From Robertkochia solimangrovi (lineage in GTDB: Bacteria; Bacteroidota; Bacteroidia; Flavobacteriales; Flavobacteriaceae), in contig NZ_QKWN01000010.1 of the NCBI RefSeq assembly GCF_007279655.1, positions 124,001 to 188,000 of the forward strand: a DNA stretch of 64,000 nt, in the 5' to 3' direction. The position numbers and the translations under genes are program-made. The number at the start of each line of letters is the position of its first letter. Position 1 is the first letter of the stretch. Below the pieces are notes generated by a model that had not been told where the DNA came from, did not search any database, and saw only the letters and a program-made list of their open reading frames with translations. Positions 33,019 through 49,153 of this stretch are shown here, piece by piece.

Positions 33019-33393
33019 TCAGGCTAAAGGATTTGGAAAATTATCAGTTTCATCCTCATTCGGACGTTTGTGAAGACATTGAAAATCCTTTTCAACCAAA
33101 ATATGCAACTCAAACTCCTCTCCCGGAATCTCTTCATTCTGAAATCCCACCTGTTCGGTAGTTGCCCATTCTTCTGCTATGCCTGGAGGTACATTTACCT
33201 GAATACGTCCCTCTTTATAGACAGCCGAAACCACCCGGGTATCGCGATCATAACGTAATTCATAGGTTAATCCATACTGTGTGATCGGATCGAATACGGT
33301 AAAATCACTTACAGAACCCTGGTCCCAAAATGTATGAACCTCACCCTGGGATAATCTCAAACGGATCGTATTTCCTTTTATTCTCAGTTTCAT
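33019..33393 (-). CDS. DUF7009-type small protein of the nitrate cluster
   Basis: The 124-residue, beta-rich, probably cytoplasmic protein starts MKLRIKGNTIRLRLSQ and contains LTYELRYDRD and INVPPG-like segments. Its makeup fits the DUF7009 family, which I recall from nitrate-assimilation neighbourhoods in Bacteroidota. Its function is unknown. It is divergent from nirB and shares the 359-bp control region with the nitrate palindrome, so co-regulation is likely. A maturation or stability factor for the reductases is a guess from context only. Confidence 0.65.
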   Translation of the reverse strand: MKLRIKGNTIRLRLSQGEVHTFWDQGSVSDFTVFDPITQYGLTYELRYDRDTRVVSAVYKEGRIQVNVPPGIAEEWATTEQVGFQNEEIPGEEFELHILVEKDFQCLHKRPNEDETDNFPNPLA

Positions 33394-33752
33394 AGCGAAA
33401 GAATTTCCATTTACTAAATTAGTTCATTTTATGCGTATTATAAAGCAGAAATACCGGAATTCCATTGAATTCCACACCAAATCCACCCATCTTTCTTACA
33501 ATCCTTTATTTCATTTATCTCAAAATCATAAATCATTCTTTACAGGAAATTTAAAATTCAATTATCCTATTCAAATAAATGCAAAATTTAGACAACTACG
33601 TAATTTTTATCCCTAAATAGTAGATTGAATTAAGTATTATTACTTATTTTTGATAAAAATTATACGTAGAAATCGTTATAATACGGTATTTTGAACCTTA
33701 CCGGTATCCCGCCGGAGATGCTGAAACTTTAAAAAAATCAAAATCACAACCT
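33394..33752. promoter_or_regulatory. Divergent control region DUF7009 / nirB
   Basis: This AT-rich region holds the palindrome at 33631-33646, overlapping a perfect TAnnTTTG -7 box (TATTTTTG, 33645-33652). TACGTA elements on both sides (33597 and 33662) repeat the half-site core. No gene fits inside it. Confidence 0.6.
33631..33647. promoter_or_regulatory. Nitrate-regulon palindrome before nirB
   Basis: TAAGTATTATTACTTA is a near-perfect palindrome, and with the next base TACTTAT matches the NarL heptamer TACYYMT. It corresponds to the palindrome before the transporter (40134) and the tandem copies before the porin (47720). It lies 106 bp before the nirB start codon and overlaps the -7 box. 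Confidence 0.65.
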
Positions 33753-36260
33753 ATGAAAAAGGTGATCGTAATTGGAAATGGAATGGTAGGATACAAGTTT
33801 TGCGAAAAACTGGTAAGCCGTTCTGAATTTAAAGAGATCCGGCTAACGGTATTCGGAGAAGAACCCCGCCCTGCCTATGACCGTGTTCACCTCAGTGAAT
33901 ATTTTAATGAGACCGGGGCTGATGATCTGCAGTTGGCATCACGTAGCTGGTATGAATCACATAATATCGATCTGAAAACAACTACTATGATCAGTACGAT
34001 CGACAGTATTCACAGAACGGTCACCGATCATAAAGGTAACACGTATTGCTATGATAAGCTGGTACTCGCCACTGGGTCTTACCCTTTTGTCCCTCCAATT
34101 CCCGGAGCTGACAAAAAAGGAGTTTTTGTATACCGTACCATCGAAGATCTCGATGCGATAAAATCCTACGCTCTTAAGTTAAAGGAAAATGGAAGAAGTA
34201 CAGCTGCGGTTCTTGGTGGTGGTTTACTCGGACTTGAAGCGGCGAATGCAGGTAAAGAACTCGGGCTCGAAACACATGTAGTGGAATTCGCTCCCCGTCT
34301 AATGCCGAGACAGCTGGATGATAATGCAAGTTCCATGCTAGCCGATAAGATTACTGGTATGGGACTAGGAATTCATCTGAATAAGGCTACTAAACACATC
34401 GCAGGTGATGATGCCATCACAGGACTTGCTTTTGCCGATGACACTTTCCTTTCCACAGATATGCTTATCATTTCTGCAGGTATTCGTCCGAGAGACCAAC
34501 TCGCCGTTTCAGCCGGATTGCTCATCGGTGAACGCGGAGGAATTACCGTAGATAATAAAATGCAAACCTCTAATCCTGATATCTATGCCATTGGCGAAGT
34601 TGCACTCTACAACAACATGGTTTACGGACTCGTAGCTCCGGGATATGAAATGGCTGAAGTTGCAGCAGACCAGATCTGCGGTGGAGACAAACGGATGTCG
34701 CCATCGATCGATATGTCGACGCAGTTAAAACTTATAGGTACCGAAGTAGCCAGCTTCGGGGATCCCTTCATCGAAAATGAAAGTGTTTCAGTGATCACTT
34801 ATGAGAATAAGCAAAAAGGGATCTATAAAAGAATCAACATCAGCAAAGACGGCAGCAAACTTCTGGGTGGCATTCTCGTGGGCGATTCTTCAGATTACAA
34901 CACGTTATTCCAACTTTACCTCAACGAAATGAAGCTTCCTGAAGACCCTGAAGTTCTTATTCTGGGGAGTCGGGACGGAGCAGGTTCTGCTTTAGGAAAT
35001 GTACTTGATCTGCCGGAAACCGCACAGATATGTTCCTGTGAAAGTGTCAGTAAAGGAAGTATTTGCGGAGCCATTCTCGAAGGAAATTGTTGCTCGGTAA
35101 AGGATGTGATCACCAGCACAAAGGCCACCACCGGATGTGGAGGATGTAAACCTATGGTTAGCGACCTGGTCACGGAAACCCTGAAATCAATGGGGAAAAC
35201 GGTCAAAGAAACCATCTGTGAACACTTCGAACTGAATCGTCAGGAATTATATGACCTCGTCAAAGTAAAAAATATACAAGACTACGACACTGCATTGAAT
35301 GAATTTGGAAAAGGTCATGGATGTGAAATTTGCAAACCGGTGCTCGCCTCAATCTTTGCGAGTATTCATGCCGAAACAGCAAACCGTCAACCGGCCATTC
35401 AGGATTCCAATGATAAATTCCTGGCCAATATTCAGCGAAATGGTACTTACTCAGTTGTACCCCGGGTCCCCGGCGGTGAAATAACACCCGATAAACTTAT
35501 GGTTCTGGGAGCGATCGCTAAAAAATATGACCTGTATACCAAAATTACAGGGGGGCAGCGAATCGACCTTTTCGGTGCACAATTATATGAACTTCCCCTG
35601 ATCTGGAAAGAACTTATCGATGCAGGGTTTGAAAGCGGGCACGCATATGGAAAAGCACTGCGTACCGTAAAAAGTTGCGTAGGCTCTACCTGGTGTCGAT
35701 ATGGAATGCACGAAAGCGTAACCTTCGCCATCAACATCGAAAACCGATATCGAGGTATCCGGTCACCACATAAATTAAAAGGAGGTGTTTCCGGATGTAT
35801 CCGTGAATGTGCAGAGGCAAGAGGTAAGGACTTCGGTATTATCGCTGTAGATGGCGGATGGAATCTATATGTCTGTGGAAACGGTGGTGCCAACCCTAAA
35901 CACGCCATATTACTTGCAGAACAATTAGATGATGAGACCTGTATTAGATATCTAGATCGTTTTCTGATGTTCTATATCCGTACCGCTGCACCCCTGATGC
36001 GTACGGCTCCATGGCTGGAGAAGCTGGATGGAGGTATCGAATATCTGAAAGATGTAATCATCAGGGATTCCCTGGGAATTGCCGGAGAACTTGAGGAAGA
36101 AATGGAATCACTTGTAGATCGCTACACCTGTGAATGGAAACAGGCGATCGAAGATCCGGAAATAGCAAAACGATTCCGACACTTTATCAACGCGGAAGAT
36201 CCCGATGAAAATATAAGCTACGTGCCGTTACGCGATCAAAAAATGCCTAAACCCTGGTAA
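33753..36260 (+). CDS. nirB: Assimilatory nitrite reductase, large subunit NirB
   Basis: The 835-residue protein has an N-terminal FAD/NAD(P)H reductase (IGNGMVGYKFCEKL; VLGGGLLGLEAANAGKELGL), a BFD-like [2Fe-2S] domain (CSCESVSKG to GCGGCKP, about 427-475) and a C-terminal siroheme/[4Fe-4S] reductase. The cluster ligands are C642-x5-C648 and C682-x3-C686. It reduces nitrite to ammonium in the cytoplasm with six electrons from NAD(P)H. It is the first gene of nirB-nirD-DUF4202-sensor-regulator, all within 12 bp of each other up to the sensor. Confidence 0.96.
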   Translation: MKKVIVIGNGMVGYKFCEKLVSRSEFKEIRLTVFGEEPRPAYDRVHLSEYFNETGADDLQLASRSWYESHNIDLKTTTMISTIDSIHRTVTDHKGNTYCYDKLVLATGSYPFVPPIPGADKKGVFVYRTIEDLDAIKSYALKLKENGRSTAAVLGGGLLGLEAANAGKELGLETHVVEFAPRLMPRQLDDNASSMLADKITGMGLGIHLNKATKHIAGDDAITGLAFADDTFLSTDMLIISAGIRPRDQLAVSAGLLIGERGGITVDNKMQTSNPDIYAIGEVALYNNMVYGLVAPGYEMAEVAADQICGGDKRMSPSIDMSTQLKLIGTEVASFGDPFIENESVSVITYENKQKGIYKRINISKDGSKLLGGILVGDSSDYNTLFQLYLNEMKLPEDPEVLILGSRDGAGSALGNVLDLPETAQICSCESVSKGSICGAILEGNCCSVKDVITSTKATTGCGGCKPMVSDLVTETLKSMGKTVKETICEHFELNRQELYDLVKVKNIQDYDTALNEFGKGHGCEICKPVLASIFASIHAETANRQPAIQDSNDKFLANIQRNGTYSVVPRVPGGEITPDKLMVLGAIAKKYDLYTKITGGQRIDLFGAQLYELPLIWKELIDAGFESGHAYGKALRTVKSCVGSTWCRYGMHESVTFAINIENRYRGIRSPHKLKGGVSGCIRECAEARGKDFGIIAVDGGWNLYVCGNGGANPKHAILLAEQLDDETCIRYLDRFLMFYIRTAAPLMRTAPWLEKLDGGIEYLKDVIIRDSLGIAGELEEEMESLVDRYTCEWKQAIEDPEIAKRFRHFINAEDPDENISYVPLRDQKMPKPW

Positions 36261-36271
36261 AATCAATCATC

Positions 36272-36649
36272 ATGCAGGAACTTTTAAAAAAATACAACAG
36301 CGTCAAGACCTTCGAAGTGAAGAACTGGTTCAGGGCAGGTACCATCGATCAATTCCCAAGTGATAGTGGAGCCTGCGTTAAATATAATGACAAGCAAATC
36401 GCGGTCTTTAATTTTACCCGAACCAATACCTGGTACGCATGTCAGAATCTTTGTCCGCACAGACTCGAAATGGTTCTTTCCAGAGGAATGACCGGCGATC
36501 TGAATGATATTCCAAAAATCGCTTGTCCGCTTCACAAAAAGACGTTTTCACTTATTGATGGTAAAAGTCTCGGTGGGGATGACCTAAGTATTAGTGTGTA
36601 TCCGGTTAAAATTGAGGATGAAAATGTGTATATTGGCTTTACAGACTAA
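36272..36649 (+). CDS. nirD: Nitrite reductase small subunit NirD with Rieske ligands
   Basis: The 125-residue Rieske-fold protein follows nirB by 11 bp. Unlike E. coli NirD, which has lost the cluster, it keeps both halves of the Rieske motif: C-x-H in NLCPHR and C-x2-H in CPLHKKTF. A [2Fe-2S] cluster is therefore likely. It partners NirB in electron transfer to the siroheme site. Confidence 0.9.
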   Translation: MQELLKKYNSVKTFEVKNWFRAGTIDQFPSDSGACVKYNDKQIAVFNFTRTNTWYACQNLCPHRLEMVLSRGMTGDLNDIPKIACPLHKKTFSLIDGKSLGGDDLSISVYPVKIEDENVYIGFTD

Positions 36650-36655
36650 TATAAC

Positions 36656-37234
36656 ATGACATCTTTCGAAAAAGCGATCAGTAAAATTGACGAATACAAT
36701 GCTCAGGACCCCCATAAGGAGGTTTGGAGTGGAATTTCTTATCCAAAGGAGGTACTCTATGCCGAACGTATGACGCAAAAATTATCGGAGTTTAATCCAA
36801 ATGCATCAGAAGCTTTACGCCTGGCAGCCCGTGCTCAGCATATTGGCAGATGGGAAATCCCACGGGAAGAATATCCCGATAACCGCTCCGGATATTTACG
36901 CTGGAGAGAGGCATTGAAAAAATTCCATGCAAATACCACTGAAGCGATATTGCAAAGTGCGGGATATGAACCTGATTTTATCGCTAGGGTGACCACTCTG
37001 ATTCGTAAAAAAGGACTGAAGAACGATCCTGGCGTACAAACACTTGAGGATGTGATCTGCCTGGTGTTTCTTGAATTCTACTTTGAAGATTTCGCGGGTA
37101 AACATCCGGAAGATAAAATAGTCGATATCATTCAAAAAACCTGGAATAAAATGTCTGAAGATGGAAGAAACGCGGCTTTGTCCCTTCCCTTGTCTGAATC
37201 AAGTCTACACCTAATCCAAAAAGCTATCGGCTAA
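36656..37234 (+). CDS. DUF4202 protein
   Basis: This 192-residue, all-helical protein matches DUF4202. It has RAQHIGRWEIPREEYPDNR (residues about 60-78), with His and acidic residues, and LEDVICLVFLEFYFEDF (about 130-146). The His/Asp arrangement recalls HD-type metal sites, but this is inference. It sits between nirD and the nitrate sensor with 6-bp gaps on both sides, so it is made together with nitrite reductase. Its role is unknown; cofactor handling or nitrogen-status signalling are possibilities. Confidence 0.82.
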   Translation: MTSFEKAISKIDEYNAQDPHKEVWSGISYPKEVLYAERMTQKLSEFNPNASEALRLAARAQHIGRWEIPREEYPDNRSGYLRWREALKKFHANTTEAILQSAGYEPDFIARVTTLIRKKGLKNDPGVQTLEDVICLVFLEFYFEDFAGKHPEDKIVDIIQKTWNKMSEDGRNAALSLPLSESSLHLIQKAIG

Positions 37235-37240
37235 ACAAGT

Positions 37241-39052
37241 ATGACGCGAACGATAGATCAGCAGACCTTCAGCAGACTCAGAAGGATGTATATCATTGCC
37301 CTGAGCGTTATCGCCCTGTCCATTATTACAAGTCAGATTTTAATCCGTGGATTCCTCAGCGATCAGGAAGGTGATTCCAGGGTCATCAATACTGCAGGAA
37401 GACAGCGAATGTTAAGTCAGAAAATCACCAAAGAAGCCTTGCTGTTGTCCGCTACTACAGACTCTTATGAACGTATTCCGGTACAGGAAGCGCTCGAATC
37501 TTCATTGAATGAATGGGAATCTGCACATCTCGCCTTACAACAAGGCAATGTTGAAATGGGACTTCCGGGAAATAACAGCAAGATTATTGCTGAAGAATTC
37601 AAAGCGATCAATCCTGTGTTCGAAGCCATAAGTAATGCCGTTCACAATATCCTTAAAAAATTAAAAACCGATCCCAACAGTGACCCCGCAACCTTTGATA
37701 CAGAATTAAGCGTCATTCTCGGAAAAGAAGGTGTTTTCCTGAACAACATGGATGACATTGTAAATCAATATGATAAAGAAGCCAAAGCCAAGGTCGATCG
37801 TTTGAAAAAGATAGAGATCCTGATTCTCGGACTAACGCTTGCCGTGTTATTATGTGAATTTATTTTTATTTTCTGGCCTACTGCCAGAGCTGTAAAATTG
37901 AGTATGCAACAACTGATATCCGCTGAAAATAAATCAAGGAAAATGGCCGTTGAAGCTGATAAACACAGTCAGGCCAAGGAGCGTTCAGTCCAACAACTCA
38001 AGAGTCTTTACCGGGTAATGGACCAAACCCTGCTCTTTGCCCGGATCAATCCTGAAGGAAATCTGATCCATCTCGGCGAACGATTTCTGAAGTTGTTCAA
38101 TTTCCGTCTCCTCAGTGACCATACAAATATAACAGAGATACTGACCACTGATACCAGTGACCGGGAAGCGATCAGTAACCTTATCTACACCCATCAAAAA
38201 ACAGGTTGGCAGGGTGAAATCAGGGCTAAAGACAGTGAAGGAAATATAATCTGGCTTGATATGAGTCTAATTCCCTTCACCGCTTCAGGAGGAGAACCGG
38301 AACTTTTGGTAATTTGTCTCGACATCACCAAAAGAGTCGAAGCACAACAGAAGTTCGAGAACCTTACCAAAACAACCTTTGAAGAGAAGATCCTTCACCA
38401 GAAGGATATATCAAAACAGATCATCGAAAACCAGGAACAGGAACAAAACAGAATCGCAAAGGATCTGCATGACGGTATCGGACAAATGCTTACCGGACTG
38501 AAGTTCAATCTTGAAAGTATCGATATGCAAAAGCCGGAAAGAGCTATCCAAAAGATCGAGCAACTGAAAGAGATCACGACCAACATCATCAAGGGAGTCC
38601 GTACCGCAACCTTTAACCTGACTCCTCCGGAGCTGAGCGATCATGGTATCGGTCCGGCACTTGCCAAACTTACAGACGAACTTTCCAGACTTACGGGAAA
38701 AACCATCATCTTTTTAAATAAGACCCAATTCAATCTCCGCCTGGATTCCCTGATCGAAATAAACATCTACAGAATTACTCAGGAAGCGATCAACAATGCC
38801 ATAAAATACTCCGGTTCAGATCATATTGCAGTGATCATCGCACATAGTAAAGAAGTGTTAAGTATTAATATTGAGGATAATGGAACAGGATTTAAACCGG
38901 ATAAGATAGAAAGACGATCAGGTGACGGAGGTATGGGACTTACCTTTATGCAAGAGCGAACAAGTTTTATAAATGGTCGCTTATTCATTGAAAGTGAACC
39001 GGGTAAAGGCACACATATCACACTAAACATTCCACTAAGCAGGTTTACGTAA
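37241..39052 (+). CDS. NarX-like nitrate/nitrite sensor histidine kinase
   Basis: The 603-residue protein has TM1 (about 12-33) and a periplasmic PilJ/type-IV-pilus-like domain with NTAGRQRMLSQKI (about 46-58), which corresponds to the nitrate-binding P-box of NarX/NarQ. TM2 follows (about 190-212), then a coiled coil and a PAS domain (about 255-370). A HisKA_3 helix carries H410 (IAKDLHDG), and the HATPase_c domain has DNGTGF and GMGLTFMQER. It lies in the nitrite-reductase operon and 43 bp before its cognate regulator. Confidence 0.93.
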   Translation: MTRTIDQQTFSRLRRMYIIALSVIALSIITSQILIRGFLSDQEGDSRVINTAGRQRMLSQKITKEALLLSATTDSYERIPVQEALESSLNEWESAHLALQQGNVEMGLPGNNSKIIAEEFKAINPVFEAISNAVHNILKKLKTDPNSDPATFDTELSVILGKEGVFLNNMDDIVNQYDKEAKAKVDRLKKIEILILGLTLAVLLCEFIFIFWPTARAVKLSMQQLISAENKSRKMAVEADKHSQAKERSVQQLKSLYRVMDQTLLFARINPEGNLIHLGERFLKLFNFRLLSDHTNITEILTTDTSDREAISNLIYTHQKTGWQGEIRAKDSEGNIIWLDMSLIPFTASGGEPELLVICLDITKRVEAQQKFENLTKTTFEEKILHQKDISKQIIENQEQEQNRIAKDLHDGIGQMLTGLKFNLESIDMQKPERAIQKIEQLKEITTNIIKGVRTATFNLTPPELSDHGIGPALAKLTDELSRLTGKTIIFLNKTQFNLRLDSLIEINIYRITQEAINNAIKYSGSDHIAVIIAHSKEVLSINIEDNGTGFKPDKIERRSGDGGMGLTFMQERTSFINGRLFIESEPGKGTHITLNIPLSRFT

Positions 39053-39095
39053 TTTTACTTATTTTTACAGTTCTGATCCGAAAGCGACAGCTACC

Positions 39096-39749
39096 ATGGA
39101 AAAAATCAATATCATACTTGCCGATGACCATGCCCTGGTCAGGGATGGAATAAAATCACTACTCGAAGATGAAACCGATGTTCAGGTGATCGGAGAGGCT
39201 GCAAACGGTCTCGAAGCATTGACCGCTATCGGTGAACATGAACCGGATCTGTTGATCGTGGATATCCGTATGCCAGAGATGAACGGCATACAGGTAGTGG
39301 AAAAAGTAACCAGAGATTTTCCGGAAGTACGTACCCTTGTGCTATCGATGCACGACTCAGAGGAATATGTGGTACAATCGATCAATGCCGGTGCAGATGG
39401 ATATATCTTAAAGGGAGCGAGTAAAGATGAATTTATGAAAGCCCTCCACACCGTTGCATCCGGACAAAAGTACTATGCCGGAGATGTCTCCTCCTTTATC
39501 ATCAAAAACTTTGTTCAGGGAACACCTGTCTCCCCTTTAAAGTCGGTTGTAACAACCGATATCAAACTCACAAGAAGAGAGAAACAAATACTGGACCTTG
39601 TCCTCGAAGGACTCAGTAACAAGGATATTGCAGAAAAGCTCAATATCAGTAAACGAACTGCAGAGGTACATCGCTTCAACCTCATGAAAAAGATGGACGT
39701 CAAAAATCAAATGGAACTTGCGAATAAAGCCCGTGAGGCTGGCCTTTAG
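39096..39749 (+). CDS. NarL-family response regulator
   Basis: This 217-residue protein has a receiver domain (IILADDHALVRDG; phospho-acceptor Asp in LLIVDIRMPEMNG; YILKGAS). The C-terminal LuxR-type helix-turn-helix (LTRREKQILDLVLEGLSNKDIAEKL...KRTAEVHRFNLMKKM) binds DNA. It is the expected partner of the NarX-like kinase. The heptamer TACTTAT, found in the shared palindromes, matches the NarL consensus TACYYMT, so it is the main candidate to bind them. Confidence 0.94.
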   Translation: MEKINIILADDHALVRDGIKSLLEDETDVQVIGEAANGLEALTAIGEHEPDLLIVDIRMPEMNGIQVVEKVTRDFPEVRTLVLSMHDSEEYVVQSINAGADGYILKGASKDEFMKALHTVASGQKYYAGDVSSFIIKNFVQGTPVSPLKSVVTTDIKLTRREKQILDLVLEGLSNKDIAEKLNISKRTAEVHRFNLMKKMDVKNQMELANKAREAGL

Positions 39750-40249
39750 ACTGAAGACACAGCCCTAGCGGCAGGCTCTTTTGATTTGCATTCATCGCAT
39801 GTCTGCCGATAGAAATCGGGACACCTGTCTGTGGTGAAAAGGATATGAATGCAATCATTAAGTGATTCAGAAAATCTGTCCTGTACTAACTGGAATTAAG
39901 GTTTTCTCACTTCGTCGCCTTTAATTTCCTCCGGCAATTATCATTAAAACACTGGTACCACAAGGTCACCCAAGTATCATCGTTCAAATGTACGATGAAC
40001 GATACGGTACGCAACGCAGTCGTAGACAGCATCGTCATTTTCTTTAATCATGGGGTGTAAATATTTAAAAATCTGCACATTCTACCCTTTCGAATTAAAA
40101 ATACCATAAAACTACGTATACTTATTTCTTATATAAGTATTTATACTTACTTTTACATACCGCCTTTTCTAAGTATTGATTATCAATGGTATTATAATGA
40201 GTGTTGATGATCGATCTGACTGAAATAATAACCATTTAAAACAAAACCG
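39750..40249. other. 500-bp intergenic region with inverted repeats
   Basis: No gene is visible. TTGCATTCAT (39787) and ATGAATGCAA (39846) are inverted 10-bp repeats enclosing CCGATAGAAATCGG. Further on, ATCGTTCA and TGAACGAT pair around 39975-40005. The first part resembles the ends of the dispersed intergenic repeats at 5.5 and 24.3 kb. The last 130 bp hold the transporter promoter. Confidence 0.5.
40119..40150. promoter_or_regulatory. Nitrate-regulon operator before the nitrate transporter
   Basis: TAAGTATTTATACTTA (40134-40149) is a perfect 7-2-7 palindrome. TACTTAT (40119-40125) and ATAAGTA (40133-40139) add a convergent pair of perfect NarL-type heptamers. TACTTTTA directly at its right edge is a one-mismatch -7 box. 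The palindrome ends 101 bp before the start codon, as before nirB (107 bp). Confidence 0.68.
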
Positions 40250-41671
40250 ATGAAAACTATCACTTCACAAAAGTCGACCCGGCTAAACCTAACCGACCTA
40301 AGATCATTACCGATCAGAACATTCTGGATTACTTCCATCGCTTTTTTCCTGTGCTTTTTCTCTTGGTTTGGGATCGTACCCTTTATGCCGGATGTTGTTC
40401 GAGAACTGGGACTTACTCCGGATCAGAAATGGAACTCCGTTATTCTGGCGGTTACAGGAACAGTATTTGCCCGATTACTGATCGGGAAACTCTGTGACAA
40501 ATATGGTCCAAGACTATGCTACACCTGGCTCCTGATCCTGGGATCCATTCCTGTGATCCTTTGCGGACTCGCACAAACGCCTTTCCAGTTCCTGGTTTGC
40601 AGACTTTTCATAGGGTTTATCGGAGCTTCTTTCGTAATTACACAGGTACATACCTCCCTCATGTTTGCGTCGAATATCGTTGGAACCGCTAATGCAACCT
40701 CTGCAGGATGGGGGAATCTCGGAGGGGGTGCAAACCGTTTGGGAATGCCATTGATCGCAGCTGCAGTGGTTAGTTTTGGCGTAGCTGAATCCGATGCATG
40801 GCGCTATTCGATGATCATTGCAGGTATCGTTTGTTTTTTAATGGGTTTAGTATATTATAAGTTTACAAAAGACACTCCGGAAGGTAATTTCTCAGAGCTT
40901 CGTGACCAAGGCATTGATGTAACTACTAAAAAAGATAGTGCCAGCTTTACAGAAGCGATAAAAGATTATCGCGTTTGGATACTTTTCCTTGTATATGCTG
41001 CCTGTTTCGGTATCGAACTGACCGTATATGGAACCATGGATGATTACTTACAGAATACCTTTCAGCTGGAACGGCTAACCGCAGGAAATATCGTGCTTTC
41101 ATTTGCTCTTATGAATATCTTCGCCCGAACCCTGGGCGGCTATTTCGGAGATCGCTACGGAAATCTGAAAGGATTAAAGGGAAGAGTACTGTTTCTTAGC
41201 TTTATCCTGGTAATAGAGGGGATTATGCTGGCTACCTTTTCAACCATGACCAGTCTTATTGCCGGTATCACCCTTCTGATACTTTTTAGCTTGTCCGTAC
41301 AAATGGCAGAAGGAGCAACCTTCTCCGTAGTACCCTTTATCAATAAGAAGGCTATCGGTTCCATATCAGGAATCGTCGGAGCGGGAGGTAATGTCGGGGC
41401 ATTTCTGGCTGCCCTTTTGTTGAAATCCAAATCTGCAGTCGCCGAAAAGGCAGCGATCGCGGCAAATGCCGGTGAAGCTGAATCCGTTGTAAAAGCGGCC
41501 CAGAGTGCCGCCTCCTCCTTAGCGGTTTCCAGTGGCTATCTACTCATCGGAATCGTTGTACTGGTTGCCGGAGTTGCTGCACTGGCCATACGATTCTCCA
41601 CCGCCGACGAAGAAGCAGCAGCCATCGAAAAAGAAACACAGTTCGCTCAATTGAGTCCTGCAAATAATTGA
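40250..41671 (+). CDS. narK: Nitrate/nitrite transporter, NarK/NRT type (MFS)
   Basis: The 473-residue protein has twelve membrane helices. The nitrate signature AGWGNLGGGANRLGMP lies near residue 150-165, and the second signature region GSISGIVGAGGNVGAF is near 370-385. This matches the NarK/NrtP family. It imports nitrate across the inner membrane (symport or nitrate/nitrite exchange). The C-terminal tail of about 30 residues is Ala/Glu-rich and cytoplasmic. It is followed after 130 bp by the nitrate reductase gene. Confidence 0.94.
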   Translation: MKTITSQKSTRLNLTDLRSLPIRTFWITSIAFFLCFFSWFGIVPFMPDVVRELGLTPDQKWNSVILAVTGTVFARLLIGKLCDKYGPRLCYTWLLILGSIPVILCGLAQTPFQFLVCRLFIGFIGASFVITQVHTSLMFASNIVGTANATSAGWGNLGGGANRLGMPLIAAAVVSFGVAESDAWRYSMIIAGIVCFLMGLVYYKFTKDTPEGNFSELRDQGIDVTTKKDSASFTEAIKDYRVWILFLVYAACFGIELTVYGTMDDYLQNTFQLERLTAGNIVLSFALMNIFARTLGGYFGDRYGNLKGLKGRVLFLSFILVIEGIMLATFSTMTSLIAGITLLILFSLSVQMAEGATFSVVPFINKKAIGSISGIVGAGGNVGAFLAALLLKSKSAVAEKAAIAANAGEAESVVKAAQSAASSLAVSSGYLLIGIVVLVAGVAALAIRFSTADEEAAAIEKETQFAQLSPANN

Positions 41672-41801
41672 TTTATTTCAGAAAGAGTTAAAATTTAAAG
41701 GAGCTGAATTGAATATTTAATAATAAATAACGAATAATCGGCAATTCCCTTTTAATTGACGTTGAAATAGTTGAATTTAGAATGTCTTTACTACGACCGA
41801 T

Positions 41802-44800
41802 ATGCTGGAAAAAGAAATAAAAACAACCTGCTCCTATTGCGGAGTAGGTTGTGGTATTATCGCTAAAAAAGACCATCAGGGCAAATTGCGGGTGAAAGGT
41901 GATCCTGATCACCCCGTAAACCGGGGTATGCTCTGTTCTAAAGGTATGAACCTGCATTATGTCGCCAATGACATTTCAGACCGATTGCTGTATCCGGAAA
42001 TGCGATGGAGCCGGTCACACCCCAGAGTGCGTGTCTCCTGGGAGCAGGCGATGCAAAGAGCTTCAGGGGTTTTCAGATCCCTGATCCAAAAATACGGTTC
42101 CGACAGTGTAGGTCTCTATGTTTCCGGGCAGTGCCTGACCGAAGAATATTACATCGCCAATAAACTCACCAAAGGATACCTCGGAACCAATAACATCGAT
42201 ACCAACAGCCGGCTATGCATGAGTTCTGCCGTGGTAGGTTATAAAAAGACCTTTGGAGAAGACTCTGTTCCCATTGCCTACGCAGATATTGAACTAGCCG
42301 ATTGTTTTCTCATCACCGGTGCTAACCCTTCCTGGTGTCACCCCATTCTGTTCAGAAGGATAGAACAGCATAAGGAAAAGAATCCGGATGTAAAGATCGT
42401 GGTAATCGACCCGAGAAAAACGGATACTGCGAATTTTGCCGATTTGCACCTGCAACTGATTCCCGGAACAGATATCGTGCTTTACAATGCTATCGGCCGG
42501 AGGTTGATGGAAAAAGGATTTGCCGATAAGGAATTCATCAAAAACAATACGGAGGGATATACAAAATATCGGGAACAATTGCTTTCTATGTCCTATAAGG
42601 AAGCTTCCCGCATCTGTGGGATACCTAAAGAAGCTATTTTCAAAGCAGCAGAATATATCGGTAAAGCAAAAGGATTTATCAGTATGTGGGCCATGGGTCT
42701 CAATCAAAGTGTCGTAGGAACCGATAAGAACTTCGCTCTTCTGAATCTGTCTCTTCTTACCGGACAAGTTGGAAAACCGGGTTCCGGACCTTTCTCGCTG
42801 ACCGGACAGCCAAATGCCATGGGTGGACGTGAAGTTGGCGGTATGGCAAATCTGCTGGCAGTTCATAAAGATCTTCTCAATCCTGATCACAGGGAAGAAG
42901 TCGCAAGATTCTGGGGAGTGGAAAGCATTTCACCACGACCGGGATATACCGCAACAGAAATGTTTGACGCACTCGAAAACGGTGACCTTAAAGCGGTTTG
43001 GATCATCTGTACAAATCCAATGGTGAGCCTGCCCAATAGCAATCGAATTCAAAAAGCCTTAAAGAATGCCCGATTTGTCATCGTTCAGGATATTTCAAAC
43101 CGGTCCGATACACTGGAATATGCAGATCTGGTGCTTCCTGCTGCCGCCTGGATGGAAAAAGAAGGTACGATGACGAATTCTGAAAGAAGGATCAGTTATC
43201 TGCCCAAAGGCATCAATCCACCCGGAGAAGCCCGTCCGGATGTGGAAATTCTCTGTGATTTTGCAAAACATATGGGGTATCGCGGCTTCGATTATCAATT
43301 TACAGAGGATATCTACCGGGAATATTGTAGTATGACCAAGGGGACCAATATCGATATCTCCCATCTAAGTTATGACCGACTTAAAAATGAAGGTTCGCTT
43401 CAATGGCCTGTTCCATCCTACCGCCATACTGGAACTCCACGATTATTTGAGGATAAACAGTTCTACACTCCATCGAAAAAAGCCATTTTCAATGTACCCT
43501 ATAGTGTAAAGAATGCATCAGTAAGTACAGATCAGCATTTCCCGTTGATCCTAACCACAGGAAGAGTAAGAGACCAATGGCATACCATGACCAAAACCGG
43601 AAAAGTAGCCCGCCTGAATTCCCATTATCCCAAACCTGTGGTAGAGATAAATCCGGTGGATGCCCACCTTAGCAAATGCAGGGACGGAGATGTGGTGGTT
43701 GTTTCCAGCAGAAATGGTGTTGTACGGGTAAAAGCCAAGGTTACCGAAAATATGCGCCCGGGAGTGGTATTCCTTCCTATGCATTGGGGTAAACAGCTCC
43801 AAAGTACACTGAACCGCGCCAATAATCTGACGAACACCATTATCGATCCGCAATCAAAAGAACCGGATTTTAAGTACACCGCTGTACAAGTACGAAAGTA
43901 CGAAAAACCAAAGGAAAACATCCTTGTGGTAGGTGCCGGTGCTGCAGCATTCAGATTTGTACAGAATTATCGCGATATGAATGACATCGATACGATCTGT
44001 GTCTTCTCAAGAGAAGCGAATCCCTTCTATAACCGCGTACTTCTACCGGAATACATCACGGAAGAACTGACTTGGGAGCAGTTGCTAAAGATCAAAGAAA
44101 GAGAACTAAGAAAACTTGAAATATCGCTGTATCCGGAAACCTTTATAACCGCAATCGATCGTGAACAGAAAATAGCAACCGACAATCATGGCAAACCACA
44201 TCGGTATGACAAATTGATTATGGCAACTGGTAGCAGTGCCTTTATTCCTCGGGATGCCCAATTGAAATTACCGGGACGCTTTACGATGCGTACCAAAACC
44301 GATGCCGATAATTTTAAAGAATATCTGGAAAATACCGGCCTCCCGCCTGAACAGCAACACGTGGTCATCGTCGGTGGCGGACTCCTGGGACTCGAGCTTG
44401 CAGCAGCGCTGAAACACAACAATCTTAAGGTTACTATCGTACAACGATCCAGCAGATTGATGGAGCGCCAACTGGACCCAACTTCAAGCCGGCTGCTAGC
44501 ACTCGATGTCCAGGAACGCGGTATCTCCATTTATTTTGATAATGAAGTAAGTACCGTATTCAATGATGAGGAATCCGGACAACTGGAAATAACCTTACGA
44601 AGTGGAAAAGTGCTGGAGGCTCATGCCATCGTTTATGCTATAGGAACCCGTCCGAATATCGGACTTGCCCGGGAAAGCGGACTCGTTTGTTCCAGAGGGG
44701 TAAAAGTAAATGAGTTCATGCAGACTTCGGATCCTGATATCTTTGCTATCGGAGAGATTGCAGAGTTTAGAGACCAGCTCTTTGGAATTACCGCAGCTGC

Positions 44801-45329
44801 AGAACAGCAGGCTAATATCCTTGCTTCCTACCTCGCCGGAGACATCAGCGAAAAGTATGAAGGTTCAGTGCTGATGAACATCCTCAAATTCAATGATCTC
44901 AATCTGTGTAGCATTGGAAATATTCATTATCAGGAAAACGATCCGGAGATCGAAGAAATCATCTTTACCGATATCAGTAAACGCTACTATAAAAAATGTA
45001 TCGTCAAGAACGATATGCTTATCGGTGCTATACTGATGGGGGACAAAAATGAATTTGCCGAATATAAAGCCTTGATTGAATCGGGAACAGAACTGGCCGA
45101 TAAACGGGAAAAACTGTTACGAGGCAGCGGTGGCGGTGGTAAACCAGTAAAGGGTAAGCTGATATGCTCCTGTAGTCAGGTTGGAAAAGGCAACCTTATC
45201 GAGATGATCTCAGCCGGGCAAAGTGATTTTACAGGGCTTTGCAATGAAAGCGGTGCCGGACTTGGATGCGGAAGTTGTAAAACAGAAGTCAGATCGATAC
45301 TGGAAGAACAAAAAGCACTGATCTCATGA
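41802..45329 (+). CDS. nasA: Assimilatory nitrate reductase fused to FAD and [2Fe-2S] domains
   Basis: The 1175-residue protein has three parts. Residues 1-about 700 form the molybdopterin reductase, with [4Fe-4S] ligands C10, C13, C17 and C45 (CSYCGVGC, CSKG). About 705-1100 is a NirB-like FAD/NAD(P)-binding reductase (VVGAGAAAFRFVQNY; IVGGGLLGLELAAALKHNN). The C-terminus is a BFD-like [2Fe-2S] domain with C1122, C1124, C1156 and C1159. It reduces nitrate to nitrite with two electrons and could take them directly from NAD(P)H, replacing a separate NasC. Its stop overlaps the next gene by 4 bp (ATGA). Confidence 0.93.
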   Translation: MLEKEIKTTCSYCGVGCGIIAKKDHQGKLRVKGDPDHPVNRGMLCSKGMNLHYVANDISDRLLYPEMRWSRSHPRVRVSWEQAMQRASGVFRSLIQKYGSDSVGLYVSGQCLTEEYYIANKLTKGYLGTNNIDTNSRLCMSSAVVGYKKTFGEDSVPIAYADIELADCFLITGANPSWCHPILFRRIEQHKEKNPDVKIVVIDPRKTDTANFADLHLQLIPGTDIVLYNAIGRRLMEKGFADKEFIKNNTEGYTKYREQLLSMSYKEASRICGIPKEAIFKAAEYIGKAKGFISMWAMGLNQSVVGTDKNFALLNLSLLTGQVGKPGSGPFSLTGQPNAMGGREVGGMANLLAVHKDLLNPDHREEVARFWGVESISPRPGYTATEMFDALENGDLKAVWIICTNPMVSLPNSNRIQKALKNARFVIVQDISNRSDTLEYADLVLPAAAWMEKEGTMTNSERRISYLPKGINPPGEARPDVEILCDFAKHMGYRGFDYQFTEDIYREYCSMTKGTNIDISHLSYDRLKNEGSLQWPVPSYRHTGTPRLFEDKQFYTPSKKAIFNVPYSVKNASVSTDQHFPLILTTGRVRDQWHTMTKTGKVARLNSHYPKPVVEINPVDAHLSKCRDGDVVVVSSRNGVVRVKAKVTENMRPGVVFLPMHWGKQLQSTLNRANNLTNTIIDPQSKEPDFKYTAVQVRKYEKPKENILVVGAGAAAFRFVQNYRDMNDIDTICVFSREANPFYNRVLLPEYITEELTWEQLLKIKERELRKLEISLYPETFITAIDREQKIATDNHGKPHRYDKLIMATGSSAFIPRDAQLKLPGRFTMRTKTDADNFKEYLENTGLPPEQQHVVIVGGGLLGLELAAALKHNNLKVTIVQRSSRLMERQLDPTSSRLLALDVQERGISIYFDNEVSTVFNDEESGQLEITLRSGKVLEAHAIVYAIGTRPNIGLARESGLVCSRGVKVNEFMQTSDPDIFAIGEIAEFRDQLFGITAAAEQQANILASYLAGDISEKYEGSVLMNILKFNDLNLCSIGNIHYQENDPEIEEIIFTDISKRYYKKCIVKNDMLIGAILMGDKNEFAEYKALIESGTELADKREKLLRGSGGGGKPVKGKLICSCSQVGKGNLIEMISAGQSDFTGLCNESGAGLGCGSCKTEVRSILEEQKALIS

Positions 45330-46768
45330 GTAAATTAACCCGTATCATCATAAAAGGTGGCGTTATAGCTCCGGCAGAACTTCGATCCATTGCGGAACAG
45401 GCAGGTGATGCAGGATTAAAAGCGATTTCTTTCGGCAGTCGTCAGGATATACTTTTTCCAAGAAAACTCAGTAAAGAACAATTAAATAACTTCCACGGCA
45501 TCGACATTATACCCGAAAACGAATCCGGTACTGAGAATATCGTCTCCTCTTATGTAAGTGCCGGCATCTTCAATGGTATTCCGTGGCTTACCGGAGATAC
45601 CTATCTCTATATTCTGGAACAATTTCGCTATAATCCAAAACTCAAGATCAATATTACCGACCCGAAACAACGACTGGTTCCCTTATTTACAGGGCATCTT
45701 AACTTTCTGGCATGCGAACAGGAAGATTACTGGTATCTCTATGTAAAACTACCGGGCTGGAAACAAGCTGAACTTTACCCGGTATTGATCTATAGTTGGG
45801 ATATTTCTAAAGTATCCCAGATGGCTGAATCCTTGCTATCGGAAGAACCCGAAGATATCGAAACCCTTTTTCAATTGTTATCCGATTCCCTGGAAACCAA
45901 CAGTAGAAATTTAAAAGATATTCCAGAGATTCCCTTCCACCCTTTTCCCTATTATGAAGGGATGAATCGAGTTGATGAAGGGAACTATTGGCTTGGTCTT
46001 TATTGGAGAAACAATCTTTACGATATCGATTTTTTACTCGAAATGTGTGATCTCTGTGCAGAATGTAAAATAGGTAAAATCGCCATCACCCCGTGGAAAT
46101 CATTCATCATTAAAGGCATTCCATCCCGATTTAAATTAAAATGGGAAAAATTCCTCGGACTTCGGGGAATCAATGTTCGCCATTCCATGCTCGAATTGAA
46201 CTGGCATATTCCGGTTTCGGATAAAGATGCACTGAAGCTTAAAAAATTCCTCGTTCGCAAATTTGATGAAAAGGACATCAGTACTTACGGATTGACCTTT
46301 GCTATTGCAGACCATGATTATCAGCCTGATTATTTTACTTCCGTAGTGATCCGTAAAAATCCGGTTCAGCAGATCGAAGGCGTGACGCTAAATGCAACTT
46401 ACAACCTACTATATGCCAAAAATTTCGATCCCAATTCCCGTAGTTATCTCACCCATGTTCAGGAAATCAGTCGTGAACACCTGCCTGATCTTCTGATCGA
46501 ACTCAGCAAAAAATATTTCAAGGAGTTGAAAGAATTCAGGCCGGGAGAACAACCTGTTACCCATAATAAGGAAAAGGAGCCTGTGAGCATAAAGGTGATG
46601 CAATGTTCCTCATGCCTGACGGTATATGATCCCAAATATGGCGATCCGGACAATGGAATACCCCGGAACACAGCCTTTGCAGATCTACCCGAAACCTGGA
46701 GTTGCCCAGTTTGTGATTCTTCAAAATCAGACTTTACCGAAACCGAATTAAAAAGTATACTGAAATAA
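45326..46768 (+). CDS. Siroheme-reductase-like scaffold without metal ligands, fused to rubredoxin
   Basis: The 480-residue protein begins with a nitrite/sulfite-reductase ferredoxin-like half-domain (IIIKGGVIAPAELRSIAEQ...; SRQDILFPR). A second one lies at about 240-300 (LCAECKIGKIAITPWKSFIIKGI). The usual CX5C and CX3C ligands of the siroheme/[4Fe-4S] site are absent. The C-terminus (about 425-480) is a rubredoxin, with CSSC and CPVCD knuckles. It overlaps the nitrate reductase gene by 4 bp. I infer an electron-transfer or assembly partner of that reductase; it is not a functional nitrite reductase by motif. Confidence 0.8.
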   Translation: MSKLTRIIIKGGVIAPAELRSIAEQAGDAGLKAISFGSRQDILFPRKLSKEQLNNFHGIDIIPENESGTENIVSSYVSAGIFNGIPWLTGDTYLYILEQFRYNPKLKINITDPKQRLVPLFTGHLNFLACEQEDYWYLYVKLPGWKQAELYPVLIYSWDISKVSQMAESLLSEEPEDIETLFQLLSDSLETNSRNLKDIPEIPFHPFPYYEGMNRVDEGNYWLGLYWRNNLYDIDFLLEMCDLCAECKIGKIAITPWKSFIIKGIPSRFKLKWEKFLGLRGINVRHSMLELNWHIPVSDKDALKLKKFLVRKFDEKDISTYGLTFAIADHDYQPDYFTSVVIRKNPVQQIEGVTLNATYNLLYAKNFDPNSRSYLTHVQEISREHLPDLLIELSKKYFKELKEFRPGEQPVTHNKEKEPVSIKVMQCSSCLTVYDPKYGDPDNGIPRNTAFADLPETWSCPVCDSSKSDFTETELKSILK

Positions 46769-46873
46769 GAATTATGGATTATGAATTAAGGATTATGGAT
46801 TAAGAATTGATTTATTCAATTCTCAATTATCAATTATCAACTCATATCTTACCTATCGTACTCACTCTAGAAA
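46769..46873. terminator. Convergent gap with hairpin and short repeats
   Basis: AGAATTGA and TCAATTCT (46803-46823) form an 8-bp stem between the convergent rubredoxin-fusion and cobA genes. ATTATGGATTA occurs twice just before it (46771-46801). Such AT-rich tandem pieces are common at flavobacterial gene ends; the hairpin may act as a weak terminator, since no long T tract follows. Confidence 0.45.
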
Positions 46874-47641
46874 TCAAAGGCTTTCCAAACTCCCTGAAGT
46901 CTGATAAAGTTCGAACATAATCTTTCTATGGTAAACTACTTCTCCAATGATAATCACTGCCGGGTTTTTGAGATTCTTATTAATAACGATCTGCTCAATA
47001 CAATCGATCGTTCCGATCCCAATGCGCTCATTAGCGCAAGTTCCATTCTCTATTACCGCTATAGGCATACGATCCTTTCCTGCATCCCTATAGGTTTGTA
47101 CGATCTCATGGAGTTTATGCATTCCCATCAAAATTACTACGGTTGCTGAAGAAGCGGCCGCTAGTTTGATATCTGGTGACATTCGATGACTACGTGTAGT
47201 ACCGGTAATCACCCAGAAACTATTAGAAATTCCCCGCTTGGTAAGTGGGATATGCTGGGTTCCAGGCACTCCTACGGAGGAAGAGATTCCGGGAATATAG
47301 GAACAGGCAATACCAAAGGAAGCCGCATACTGCATTTCTTCTGCCCCTCTTCCAAATACAAAGGGGTCTCCCCCTTTCAATCGAACCACATGTCCCTTTG
47401 AAAAAGCACGCTGTACAATCAGTTCATTGATCTGATCCTGCATATAAGTGTGACACCCTTTACGCTTTCCGACAAATATCTTTTCTGCACGATCCGCAAA
47501 TTTTAATAGCTCCGGATTTACCAATGCATCGTATAGCACTACATCCGCATCTTTAATGGCGGATACCGCTTTGAGTGTCAGCAATTCCGGATCACCCGGT
47601 CCTGCACCTACCAATGTGAGTTTTGCAGTATCTGAAATCAT
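46874..47641 (-). CDS. cobA: Uroporphyrinogen-III C-methyltransferase
   Basis: The 255-residue SAM-dependent enzyme has the family motifs VGAGPGDPELLTLKAV (residues about 11-26), VVLYDALVNPELL, VRLKGGDPFVFGRG and GISSSVGVPGTQHIPLTKRG. It makes precorrin-2 for siroheme, the cofactor of NirB. It has no CysG-type dehydrogenase/ferrochelatase domain, so another enzyme must finish siroheme. It is divergent from the porin gene across the tandem nitrate palindromes. Confidence 0.96.
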   Translation of the reverse strand: MISDTAKLTLVGAGPGDPELLTLKAVSAIKDADVVLYDALVNPELLKFADRAEKIFVGKRKGCHTYMQDQINELIVQRAFSKGHVVRLKGGDPFVFGRGAEEMQYAASFGIACSYIPGISSSVGVPGTQHIPLTKRGISNSFWVITGTTRSHRMSPDIKLAAASSATVVILMGMHKLHEIVQTYRDAGKDRMPIAVIENGTCANERIGIGTIDCIEQIVINKNLKNPAVIIIGEVVYHRKIMFELYQTSGSLESL

Positions 47642-47719
47642 AATTTCTGTGGTGTTTTAGTTAAAAATTTCCATAATTCCATCCGCTGTATTAAGGATGT
47701 CATAATTCGGTAAGCAATA

Positions 47720-47759
47720 TACGTATTTATACTTATTTATTACGTATTTATACTTATTT
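47720..47759. promoter_or_regulatory. Tandem nitrate-regulon operators between cobA and the porin gene
   Basis: TACGTATTTATACTTATTT occurs twice without a mismatch, 21 bp apart (47720-47738 and 47741-47759), so both copies face the same side of the helix. Each is the nirB/narK palindrome with one changed base in the left arm, and each contains TACTTAT. The second runs into TATTTTTA, a one-mismatch -7 box for the porin gene. Confidence 0.68.
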
Positions 47760-47784
47760 TTAAGAAACATTAAAAACCATACCA

Positions 47785-49065
47785 ATGAAAACATCAATAC
47801 GTAAACTCATTGTCTTATTCATAACATTGAGTACTCCACTACTCCATGCCCAGGAATTTAAAGCCAGTCTTGACTTTCGTGACCGATTCGAATATCGTCA
47901 TGGTTTTGGAAATCTATTTCCCGACGATGCCGATCCCGCAGCCTTTGTCCGTCAAAGAGCGCGTATTAACCTTGGTTATACCTCCGACCGCATAGAGGCG
48001 ATGTTCAGTATTCAGGATATAAGCACCTGGGGCGACACCCGGCAGATACTCCCTGCCGACGATAATAACTCACTCATGCTCTTCCAGGCATGGGTTGCAT
48101 TAAAACTAAATACGTCCTGGAAGATCAAGGTTGGAAGGCAACCGATATCCTATGATAATCAACGTATTCTGGGAGGATTGGATTGGGCGATGCAGGGTCG
48201 TACTCATGACGCGGCACTGTTGCAATATAAAGGTGAGCGCTGGGGAACAGATCTGGCGTTCGCCTTCAGTCAATCCGGTGAGCCCATTACAGGTAATTCC
48301 TATGATATCACCGGCTTTTTTAGTTACAAGACCATGCAATATGCCTACCTGTATAAAGATTGGAATGGCTCGAGGTTCAGTTTCCTCTTCATGAATAATG
48401 GTTTCCAGAGTTACAATGCGGATCAGGAAGCAGACGGCACCTATAACCGCCAAACCACCGGAGCTTATTTTAAATTTCCAGCCGGGAAATTCAACTTCGA
48501 AGGAAACTTCTATTACCAATTCGGAAAAGCAAATGCCAATAGTGATCTTAGTGCTTACGACTTCATTCTCGAAGCGATCTATAAACCCGGAAAAACAGCT
48601 TTTGGAATAGGACTTGAAATTCTAAGTGGTACGGATCAGGATGGAGATTCAAAGAACCACTCCTTCTTCCCATTGTATGGAACTAACCATAAGTTCAATG
48701 GATTCATGGATTATTTTTATGTCGGAAACCATGCTAACAATGTGGGGCTAAACGATATCAATGCCAAAGTGAACGTTAAGACCGGGGATAACAGCAGCCT
48801 TCTGATCAAAGGACATTACTTTGCAGCCAATGGTAAACTAACCAATGATGCTGATCCCTATTTAGGGACAGAGATCGATATCGTATACTCCAATAAATTC
48901 TGGAACGTTGCTACAGTCAATGCAGGATATTCACAAATGTTCGCCTCAGAAGGTATGAGTCTTATTAAAGGTGACCTTCCACATGATAATCTCAATAACT
49001 GGTTTTGGATACAATTAATCGTAGATCCGGTGCTGTTCACACATAAATTCAACGGAACAGATTAA
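47785..49065 (+). CDS. Alginate-export-family outer-membrane porin, likely for nitrate
   Basis: The 426-residue protein has a signal peptide (LIVLFITLSTPLLHA, then QE) and a beta-barrel pattern of alternating strands with aromatic ends (FRDRFEYRHGFGN; WKIKVGRQPISYDNQRILGGLDW; GRTHDAALLQYKG). This matches the alginate_exp/OprD-like porins of Bacteroidota. Neither alginate lyase nor alginate biosynthesis genes are near. Position and promoter tie it to nitrate uptake, so passive nitrate entry through the outer membrane is inferred. Confidence 0.85.
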   Translation: MKTSIRKLIVLFITLSTPLLHAQEFKASLDFRDRFEYRHGFGNLFPDDADPAAFVRQRARINLGYTSDRIEAMFSIQDISTWGDTRQILPADDNNSLMLFQAWVALKLNTSWKIKVGRQPISYDNQRILGGLDWAMQGRTHDAALLQYKGERWGTDLAFAFSQSGEPITGNSYDITGFFSYKTMQYAYLYKDWNGSRFSFLFMNNGFQSYNADQEADGTYNRQTTGAYFKFPAGKFNFEGNFYYQFGKANANSDLSAYDFILEAIYKPGKTAFGIGLEILSGTDQDGDSKNHSFFPLYGTNHKFNGFMDYFYVGNHANNVGLNDINAKVNVKTGDNSSLLIKGHYFAANGKLTNDADPYLGTEIDIVYSNKFWNVATVNAGYSQMFASEGMSLIKGDLPHDNLNNWFWIQLIVDPVLFTHKFNGTD

Positions 49066-49113
49066 TAAAGATTAAGGAAACGATCATACTACCAACCGAT
49101 GCCCCGGACACAC

Positions 49114-49153
49114 AACACCGGCAAGTTCTATTCATCACGAACCTGCCGGTGTT
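49114..49153 (+). terminator. Hairpin after the porin gene
   Basis: AACACCGGCAAGTTC and GAACCTGCCGGTGTT pair with one mismatch (15-bp stem, 10-nt loop). The following DNA has only short T runs, so it is a probable but not textbook terminator. Confidence 0.65.

Follow-up and report, generated by a model that had tools for sequence, protein, structure and literature searches.

Background

The classic heptamer of the Escherichia coli nitrate regulator NarL has the string TACYYMT. According to the parts of the papers cited here, the NarL dimer binds inverted heptamers two bases apart (PMC4549865, PMC7419079), activates from positions -44.5, -67.5 and -77.5 (PMC7419079), and represses frdA from a 7-2-7 site near the start site (PMC4549865). 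Rhizobial FixJ, which controls nitrogen-fixation genes, has the in-vitro-selected site GTAMGTAG and, at fixK, the site TAAGTAATTTCCCTTA, which is not made of two identical converging halves (PMC4999443, likewise cited from excerpts). In the Bacteroidetes, the systems named narHK/narRR lie beside nitrate genes and have a short kinase lacking HAMP and GAF, with PAS in the Flavobacteriales (PMC8199190); the excerpts of that paper describe the kinases and name the genes, and contain no mention of a binding site, a regulon or a promoter layout. Here we analyse a nitrate cluster of Robertkochia solimangrovi and the palindrome TAMGTAT-NN-ATACKTA that recurs at its promoters. The window is the whole stretch of 64,000 nucleotides (contig NZ_QKWN01000010.1, positions 124,001 to 188,000), and coordinates below count from its first letter.

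The type of kinase and regulator found here is already in print as narHK/narRR (PMC8199190, in the parts cited). In the open-licence PMC literature no prior description of a narHK/narRR motif, regulon or promoter layout was found, and the output side of this NarX-like sensor of the Bacteroidota is known there by names only. For this regulator, the present analysis predicts a binding code, a set of target genes and a promoter geometry, in the Flavobacteriaceae as well as in Algoriphagus, a genus that we take to belong to the order Cytophagales. A little-studied nitrate switch in a phylum abundant in the sea becomes directly testable: loss of a single regulator gene is predicted to lock the nitrate genes on or to leave them uninducible, and the site offers a means of searching sequenced relatives for nitrate-responsive genes.

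The palindrome and its proposed regulator

We propose that the palindrome serves as an operator, bound by a dimer of the NarL/FixJ-type response regulator (39096-39749) whose partner would be the PilJ-type histidine kinase encoded at 37241-39052. We give this a probability of roughly 0.83, a value that covers the identity of site and regulator, not the sign of control. Candidate operators precede the nirB-nirD-DUF4202-kinase operon (TAAGTATTATTACTTA, 33631-33646; the same kind of site stands in the nirB promoters of relatives), the response-regulator gene (TACGTAATTTTACTTA, 39046-39061) and narK (TAAGTATTTATACTTA, 40134-40149), and two copies lie between cobA and the porin gene (47720-47735 and 47741-47756), the second in the porin promoter. 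The narK site is perfect and the nirB site has two changes. The coordinates of the sequence-only reading were correct, as was its report of two identical copies of 19 base pairs (bp), at 47720-47738 and 47741-47759. That reading had also placed a TAnnTTT[GA] -7 box at the right edge of every copy. Such a box is present, on the plus strand, at nirB (TATTTTTG, 33645-33652, its TA common to the last two bases of the palindrome and its register fixed in relatives), at narK (TACTTTTA, 40148-40155) and at the 47741 copy (TATTTTTA, 47755-47762), and is missing from the 47720 copy, which runs into TATTTATT and has an in-register box on neither side. The site of the response-regulator gene, with an in-register box on the plus strand (TATTTTTA, 39060-39067), was absent from the earlier list; the kinase gene ends within it, and its palindrome stops 34 bp before the regulator's ATG. 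Autoregulation is therefore predicted.

Extra half-sites accompany the palindromes. At nirB, TACGTA occurs at 33597-33602 and 33663-33668 (-34 and +32 from the palindrome start), and at narK there is TACGTA-TACTTA upstream of the palindrome (40113-40124) and TAAGTA at 40170-40175, while the half-site array between cobA and the porin gene has offsets of 0, 10, 21 and 31. From site to ATG there are 106 bp at nirB (33647-33752) and 100 bp at narK (40150-40249); in relatives the distance is 23-36 bp in 27/30 nirB loci and 25-57 bp in the 29 other narK loci. An RNA element in these long leaders was rejected, no Rfam family reaching the gathering score in 33000-49500.

By its letters, the palindrome is a converging 7-2-7 repeat. 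This was examined in 60 upstream regions of 450 bp, taken from the 30 best nirB loci of 46 and from 30 of 33 narK-matching genomes, two of the 60 being the window's own. Exact sites with spacers of 0 to 6 bp number 0, 0, 31, 1, 4, 1 and 1, and with the 2-bp spacer a further 27 regions hold a one-mismatch site, as expected for a layout of NarL type. The classic NarL consensus TACYYMTNNAKRRGTA occurs in 0/60 regions exactly and in 1/60 with one mismatch, so the layout follows the classic site whereas the letters, like the promoter position, depart from it. The half-sites had been taken for diverging NarL heptamers, TACTTA[TC]; we rejected this, given the converging alignment, in which the 2-bp spacer stands out. 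TACGTA equals its own reverse complement, and TAAGTA and TACTTA mirror each other, which explains the apparent divergence. Set against the E. coli site TACYYMT-NN-AKRRGTA, the half-site here has G at position 4 and is relaxed at position 3, and otherwise agrees. The half-site TAMGTA is shared with FixJ, being the core of GTAMGTAG (PMC4999443, in the part cited).

The proteins show a similar mixture. Over its whole length the regulator has E. coli NarL as its best PDB match, and the nearest solved relatives of its DNA-reading domain are EsrB, SsrB and FixJ, ahead of NarL. Its reading helix, EVHRFNLMKK, is found in 79/80 orthologues; the distant regulators of two genomes of the phylum (G404 and G462, see below) have a different one. 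FixJ has EVHRANVMAK, with EVHR in common, whereas E. coli NarL has KVHVK in place of EVHRF. The regulator stays below the cut-offs of the curated models for FixJ (NF006900, 92.5 bits vs 255), NarL (NF007935, 158.9 vs 250) and NarP (126.8 vs 343). Judged on these comparisons, the predicted system is a NarL-type protein and layout combined with FixJ-type letters.

The kinase has PilJ, PAS and HisKA_3 matches in Pfam and no HAMP or GAF match, in agreement with the narHK description (PMC8199190, as excerpted). The locus thus resembles NarX/NarL and NarQ/NarP of E. coli in its PilJ-type sensor, its REC-GerE regulator, its 16-bp 7-2-7 repeat and its nitrate and nitrite genes as putative targets, and differs from NarX/NarL in the half-site (TAMGTAT vs TACYYMT), in the domains of the kinase (PAS, without HAMP or GAF match) and in the assimilatory type of the genes. 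The kinase motif AGRQRMLSQ, which we take to be the nitrate-binding P-box of NarX/NarQ, is conserved in 75/75 relatives.

Confinement of the site to the nitrate cluster

Allowing up to three mismatches, the window holds 12 matches on both strands vs 0.94 expected; none of 100 shuffles reached 12, and the shuffle maximum was 5. In the whole genome of 4.4 Mb, TAMGTATTTATACTTA has three exact places, all inside the cluster, and TAMGTA-N4-TACKTA (TAMGTANNNNTACKTA) has five, at 33631, 39046, 40134, 47720 and 47741, again all in the cluster. The chance that 5/5 exact sites fall within this 15.8-kb stretch is about 6e-13. One-mismatch matches to TAMGTANNNNTACKTA add 25 places genome-wide, one of them in the cluster, and are to be read as background without signal, because the reversed-pattern control gives more (113 per strand). 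When the motif is coupled to an in-register -7 box (TAMGTANNNNTACKTANNTTTR), exactly four places remain in the genome, those of nirB, the regulator gene, narK and the porin gene; the single one-mismatch place, at 39036, is likewise in the cluster, and two-mismatch totals (18 and 11 per strand) lie below the controls (28 and 35). Additional sites elsewhere in the source genome were therefore dismissed. The motif is not spread through the genome; random spread through intergenic DNA was an outcome that the sequence-only reading had named as adverse. With the conservation described below, this supports its proposal of one nitrate regulon at several promoters.

Conservation and co-occurrence with the regulator

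In the 60 nirB and narK upstream regions, TAMGTATNNATACKTA is found exactly in 31, with at most one change in 58 and with at most two in all 60, the corresponding numbers for the reversed pattern being 0, 0 and 2. With the window's own regions left out, 56/58 have the site with at most one mismatch, and an order-1 Markov null predicts this for 0.27% of regions (0.0027 per region). Information content per column is high in the palindrome and the box next to it and, apart from an A-rich patch just upstream, mostly low in the rest. A second set comprised 80 named loci with upstreams of 300 bp, in which some genomes are congeners and counts are therefore not independent. With at most one change, the site precedes nirB in 67/75, narK in 51/54, the porin gene in 8/10, cobA in 4/6 and nasC in 14/75; upstream of the regulator gene it is found in 11/80, and in 58/80 with at most two changes. 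The motif thus recurs at the promoters of nirB, narK and porin orthologues; its absence there was the other outcome named beforehand as adverse. Internal genes served as controls and gave 0/75 each for nirD, the DUF4202 gene and the kinase gene and 0/73 for the rubredoxin gene (45326-type), while the reversed control gave one match at nirB (1/75), one at nirD and 0/54 at narK. In Algoriphagus, 7/7 loci in the set have the site at both nirB and narK with at most one change.

Among 199 genomes of the family, 46 have an orthologue of the regulator, and nirB occurs in the same 46. The exact motif is present in 45/46 of these genomes vs 19/153 that lack the regulator (Fisher 3e-28), which supports the earlier suggestion that the NarL-like regulator of the cluster is the likely binder. 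Because regulator and nirB occupy the same 46 genomes, the regulator cannot be told apart from its neighbours within the family sample, and a phylum sample was therefore examined. There, nirB occurs in 28/395 genomes, 17/28 with a close regulator orthologue (at least 53% identity), and the nirB promoters of 17/28 were inspected, namely all 11 without a close regulator and 6/17 with one. The palindrome, at up to two mismatches, precedes nirB in 5/6 of the latter vs 0/11 of the former, so that motif and regulator occur and are absent together, with descent as a confounder. Four of the six regulator-positive genomes belong to the window's family and two to other families. In genomes G404 and G462 the stretch that includes nirB also encodes a distant regulator (41% and 40%, respectively) and a kinase (37% and 35%); the site is nevertheless missing at nirB. 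Two genomes, G498 and G458 (loci L295 and L296), retain the regulator together with neighbouring matches to DUF4202, porin and cobA, although no nirB passed the search threshold and the stretch examined holds no kinase match.

Forty stretches around sites outside the cluster were drawn from the matches listed, and the regulon counts that follow are therefore lower bounds. These stretches hold 50 exact sites, 38 in regulator-positive genomes and 12 in regulator-lacking ones. In the regulator-positive genomes, 28/38 sites precede nitrate-linked genes: at least 10 stand before an NMT1_2-family lipoprotein, at least 8 before a single-domain globin, at least 6 before a Crp/Fnr-type regulator (with moeA on the other side in at least 3), at least one before a narK-like transporter, and 3 before nirB/cobA, narK and nasC. 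We presume the lipoprotein to be of the NrtA kind; it has no NCBIfam match at 1e-20. Domains were scanned in one representative each of the nrtA-like, globin, Crp/Fnr-type, moeA and narK-like genes. The 12 sites in regulator-lacking genomes have no evident pattern of neighbouring genes. In two regulator-positive genomes, G196 and G172 (L161 and L168), an exact palindrome lies 143 and 168 bp before the aconitase-B gene acnB. The nrtA-like promoters (L155, L164, L165, L166 and others) and globin promoters (L157, L159, L160 and others) are also alike over about 60 bp more upstream of the -7 box, the common pattern by eye being agttttttatatg..aaaaga..cataa, perhaps the site of another regulator.

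Promoter geometry

Two classes of promoter can be distinguished. In class I (nirB, narK, the Crp/Fnr-type gene, most nasC sites and the four boxed promoters of the window) the last TA of the palindrome is the TA of the -7 box, and the box starts at +14 from the palindrome start in 66/70 nirB, 51/53 narK, 6/6 Crp/Fnr-type and 13/14 nasC sites. In class II the box stands 15-17 bases before the palindrome (10/10 nrtA-like and 8/8 globin sites). The regulator gene, searched with the looser TAMGTAN4TACKTA, has a site in 45/80 relatives, with the nearest box at +14 in 13 and at +22 to +26 in 32. A fixed register alone is no proof of functional contact, because the letters let the TA of the box coincide only with the end of the palindrome. 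In the Flavobacterium psychrophilum start-site map the -7 box lies at -12 to -5 and is of the ordinary sigma-A type TAnnTTTG (PMC9723704, in the part cited). On this scale the site centres of the arrangements described would be about -18.5, +11 and -28, and the class I palindrome would span about -26 to -11 and thus not lie upstream of -35, where a NarL-type activator would be expected. Such a core-promoter geometry was not found described for this regulator family in the excerpts of the papers cited.

The spacing of extra half-sites up to 60 bp away follows a period of 10.9 bp that is in phase with the palindrome (R 0.64, n=121, a number that overstates independence because the genomes are related). 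With each gene-position pair counted once, R is 0.50 at 11 bp (n=38); a value of 0.53 at 9 bp is taken for a side lobe of the same positions. A look-alike hexamer set gave R of at most 0.22 at 10 to 11 bp (n=66), while the reversed control yielded two matches only and was uninformative. At nirB and narK the half-sites extend past the predicted start. MerR-type activators have their dyad between -33/-35 and -7/-10, and it is not known to share bases with the -10 box. The sites described here are like theirs by position only, and the protein families are unrelated.

Mechanism and alternative explanations

In the mechanism that we propose, the kinase would sense nitrate through its PilJ domain, the regulator would bind the palindrome, including that of its own gene, and the genes behind it would respond to nitrate. 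The putative regulon here comprises nirB-nirD-DUF4202-kinase, the regulator gene, narK (presumably with nasC and the 45326 gene behind it), the porin gene and perhaps cobA; in relatives it would also include nasC and the genes for the NrtA-like binding protein, the globin, the Crp/Fnr-type regulator and moeA. A bound dimer would sit over the upstream TA of the -7 box or, at the nrtA-like and globin genes, immediately beyond the start site. Because a dimer at either position would most likely block RNA polymerase, occlusion relieved by nitrate is slightly favoured over activation, and we hold such a block to have an even chance of being the actual mode of control. The products of the nrtA-like, globin, nirB and narK genes should all be needed when nitrate is present, and activation from a site at +11 is difficult to envisage, so that the one sign common to all would be repression lifted by nitrate. 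More broadly, and with opinion evenly balanced, there may be a conserved Bacteroidota nitrate regulon in which a NarL/FixJ-type regulator acts from within the core promoter, with dimers aligned along one side of the helix in steps of about 11 bp across the -7 box and start, and is lifted by nitrate or, more boldly, activates from the spacer.

Several observations weigh against the proposed operator and its mode of control. NarX/NarL-type nitrate systems normally activate, which tells against repression, and the activation of nitrate genes by E. coli NarL from upstream does not fit the core-promoter position (PMC4549865, PMC7419079, in part). Among the named loci, the +14 register is found in only 3/8 porin, 1/4 cobA and 2/11 regulator-gene sites. 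Regulator and cluster neighbours are inseparable within the family sample, and in the phylum comparison descent is a confounder because the 11 genomes without a close regulator all come from other families (7 of the same class, 4 of the same phylum only), while most regulator-positive ones are of the window's family. Genome G393, the exception among the six regulator-positive ones, with a regulator orthologue at 53%, has only a 3-mismatch palindrome with four TACGTA half-sites, and a palindrome with two mismatches stands before nasC in G597, which lacks a close regulator. Of the regulator-lacking family genomes, 19/153 have at least one exact motif; 4/12 of the sites inspected in such genomes lie inside open frames and one precedes an unrelated secreted fn3 protein (G060). 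Finally, 10/38 sites in regulator-positive genomes are not at nitrate-linked genes, four of these being in open frames, two before aconitase B and four before others.

The sign of control might also be positive. A phosphorylated regulator at the 7-2-7 between -33 and -7 could replace a missing -33 element, so that nirB, narK, nasC and the porin gene would be on with nitrate and the +11 dimer would hold down the nrtA-like and globin genes, a dual regulator like E. coli NarL. The constant +14 register across different genes would suit this, but the letter sharing could by itself fix the register. The -33 region has TTG in 3/49 class I promoters vs 14% expected by composition, as if the element were missing; this is not decisive, because the flavobacterial map, in the part cited, mentions the -7 box only (PMC9723704), and the absence of a -33 element therefore tells little. 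In further support, nitrate genes are induced by NarX/NarL-type systems (PMC4549865), and single half-sites near -47 in 20/30 narK promoters are close to the activating position -44.5 (PMC7419079). No NarL position this near the start was found described as activating in the excerpts of these two papers, and a dimer on a site that shares the TA of the -7 box would have to compete with the sigma factor. We regard activation from the spacer as the main alternative, with less than an even chance.

It is unlikely that another regulator travelling with the cluster, such as the Crp/Fnr-type protein of relatives, or an unlinked factor binds the site. The same site stands at the Crp/Fnr-type gene in six relatives and the neighbours are not separable in the family sample, but the 7-2-7 layout with FixJ-like half-sites suits a GerE-type dimer, the site precedes the regulator gene itself (58/80 relatives at up to two mismatches), and the nirB site is missing in 11/11 genomes without a close regulator. 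The tight coupling to the -7 box could instead mark the palindrome as part of the promoter, a signature of an alternative sigma factor. This is very improbable: the box is of the ordinary sigma-A type (PMC9723704, in part), order and spacing of palindrome and box vary among genes (+14, +22 to +26, -15 to -17), the element forms a palindrome with phased half-sites on its flanks, and its occurrence at many unrelated promoters is contradicted in the source genome by the box-coupled scan (4/4 in the cluster). Chance similarity or inherited non-functional sequence has a certain appeal in regions that are 74% AT, but reversed-pattern controls, the Markov null and internal genes are nearly empty and 5/5 genome sites are in the cluster, so we count this explanation, with its negligible probability, as refuted.

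Gene content of the cluster

The nitrate cluster runs in the order nirB, nirD, DUF4202, kinase, response regulator, narK, nasC-type gene, rubredoxin protein, cobA and porin, all on the plus strand except cobA. The nitrite reductase large subunit, nirB (33753-36260), is above the cut-offs of NF011565 and TIGR02374 in NCBIfam, and the small subunit, nirD (36272-36649), above that of TIGR02378. The DUF4202 protein (36656-37234, PF13875), to which no function is assigned, lies between nirD and the kinase and, like both, was scored in 75/80 named loci. In the Pfam scan the nitrate-sensor-type kinase also has HATPase_c, and the regulator consists of Response_reg and GerE domains. The narK-type nitrate/nitrite transporter (40250-41671, PF07690) scores 305.2 bits with TIGR00886, just under the cut-off of 311.7.

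The protein encoded at 41802-45329 is, by domain scan, a nasC-type molybdopterin reductase fused to a NirB-like FAD/BFD part. Its role as nitrate reductase is inferred from similarity and context, because the NasC and Fdh-alpha models match it below their cut-offs. It is followed by a protein with a nitrite/sulphite reductase half-domain and rubredoxin (45326-46768), and these two consecutive fusions, of reductase with NirB-like flavin/BFD and of nitrite/sulphite half-domain with rubredoxin, make an unusual electron path. The cobA gene (46874-47641, minus strand) encodes uroporphyrinogen-III methyltransferase, for sirohaem, above the cut-off of TIGR01469, and the porin (47785-49065) is an outer-membrane barrel protein of the Alginate_exp family (PF13372).

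Four congeneric genomes lack a close match to the regulator (best E values 4e-33 to 3e-28), and the cluster therefore looks accessory in the genus; the nearest named matches of the regulator are in Galbibacter and Joostella. Just before the nitrate cluster, on the minus strand at 27869-32636, the list of open reading frames includes sensor-kinase and response-regulator genes that by eye are LytTR-like.

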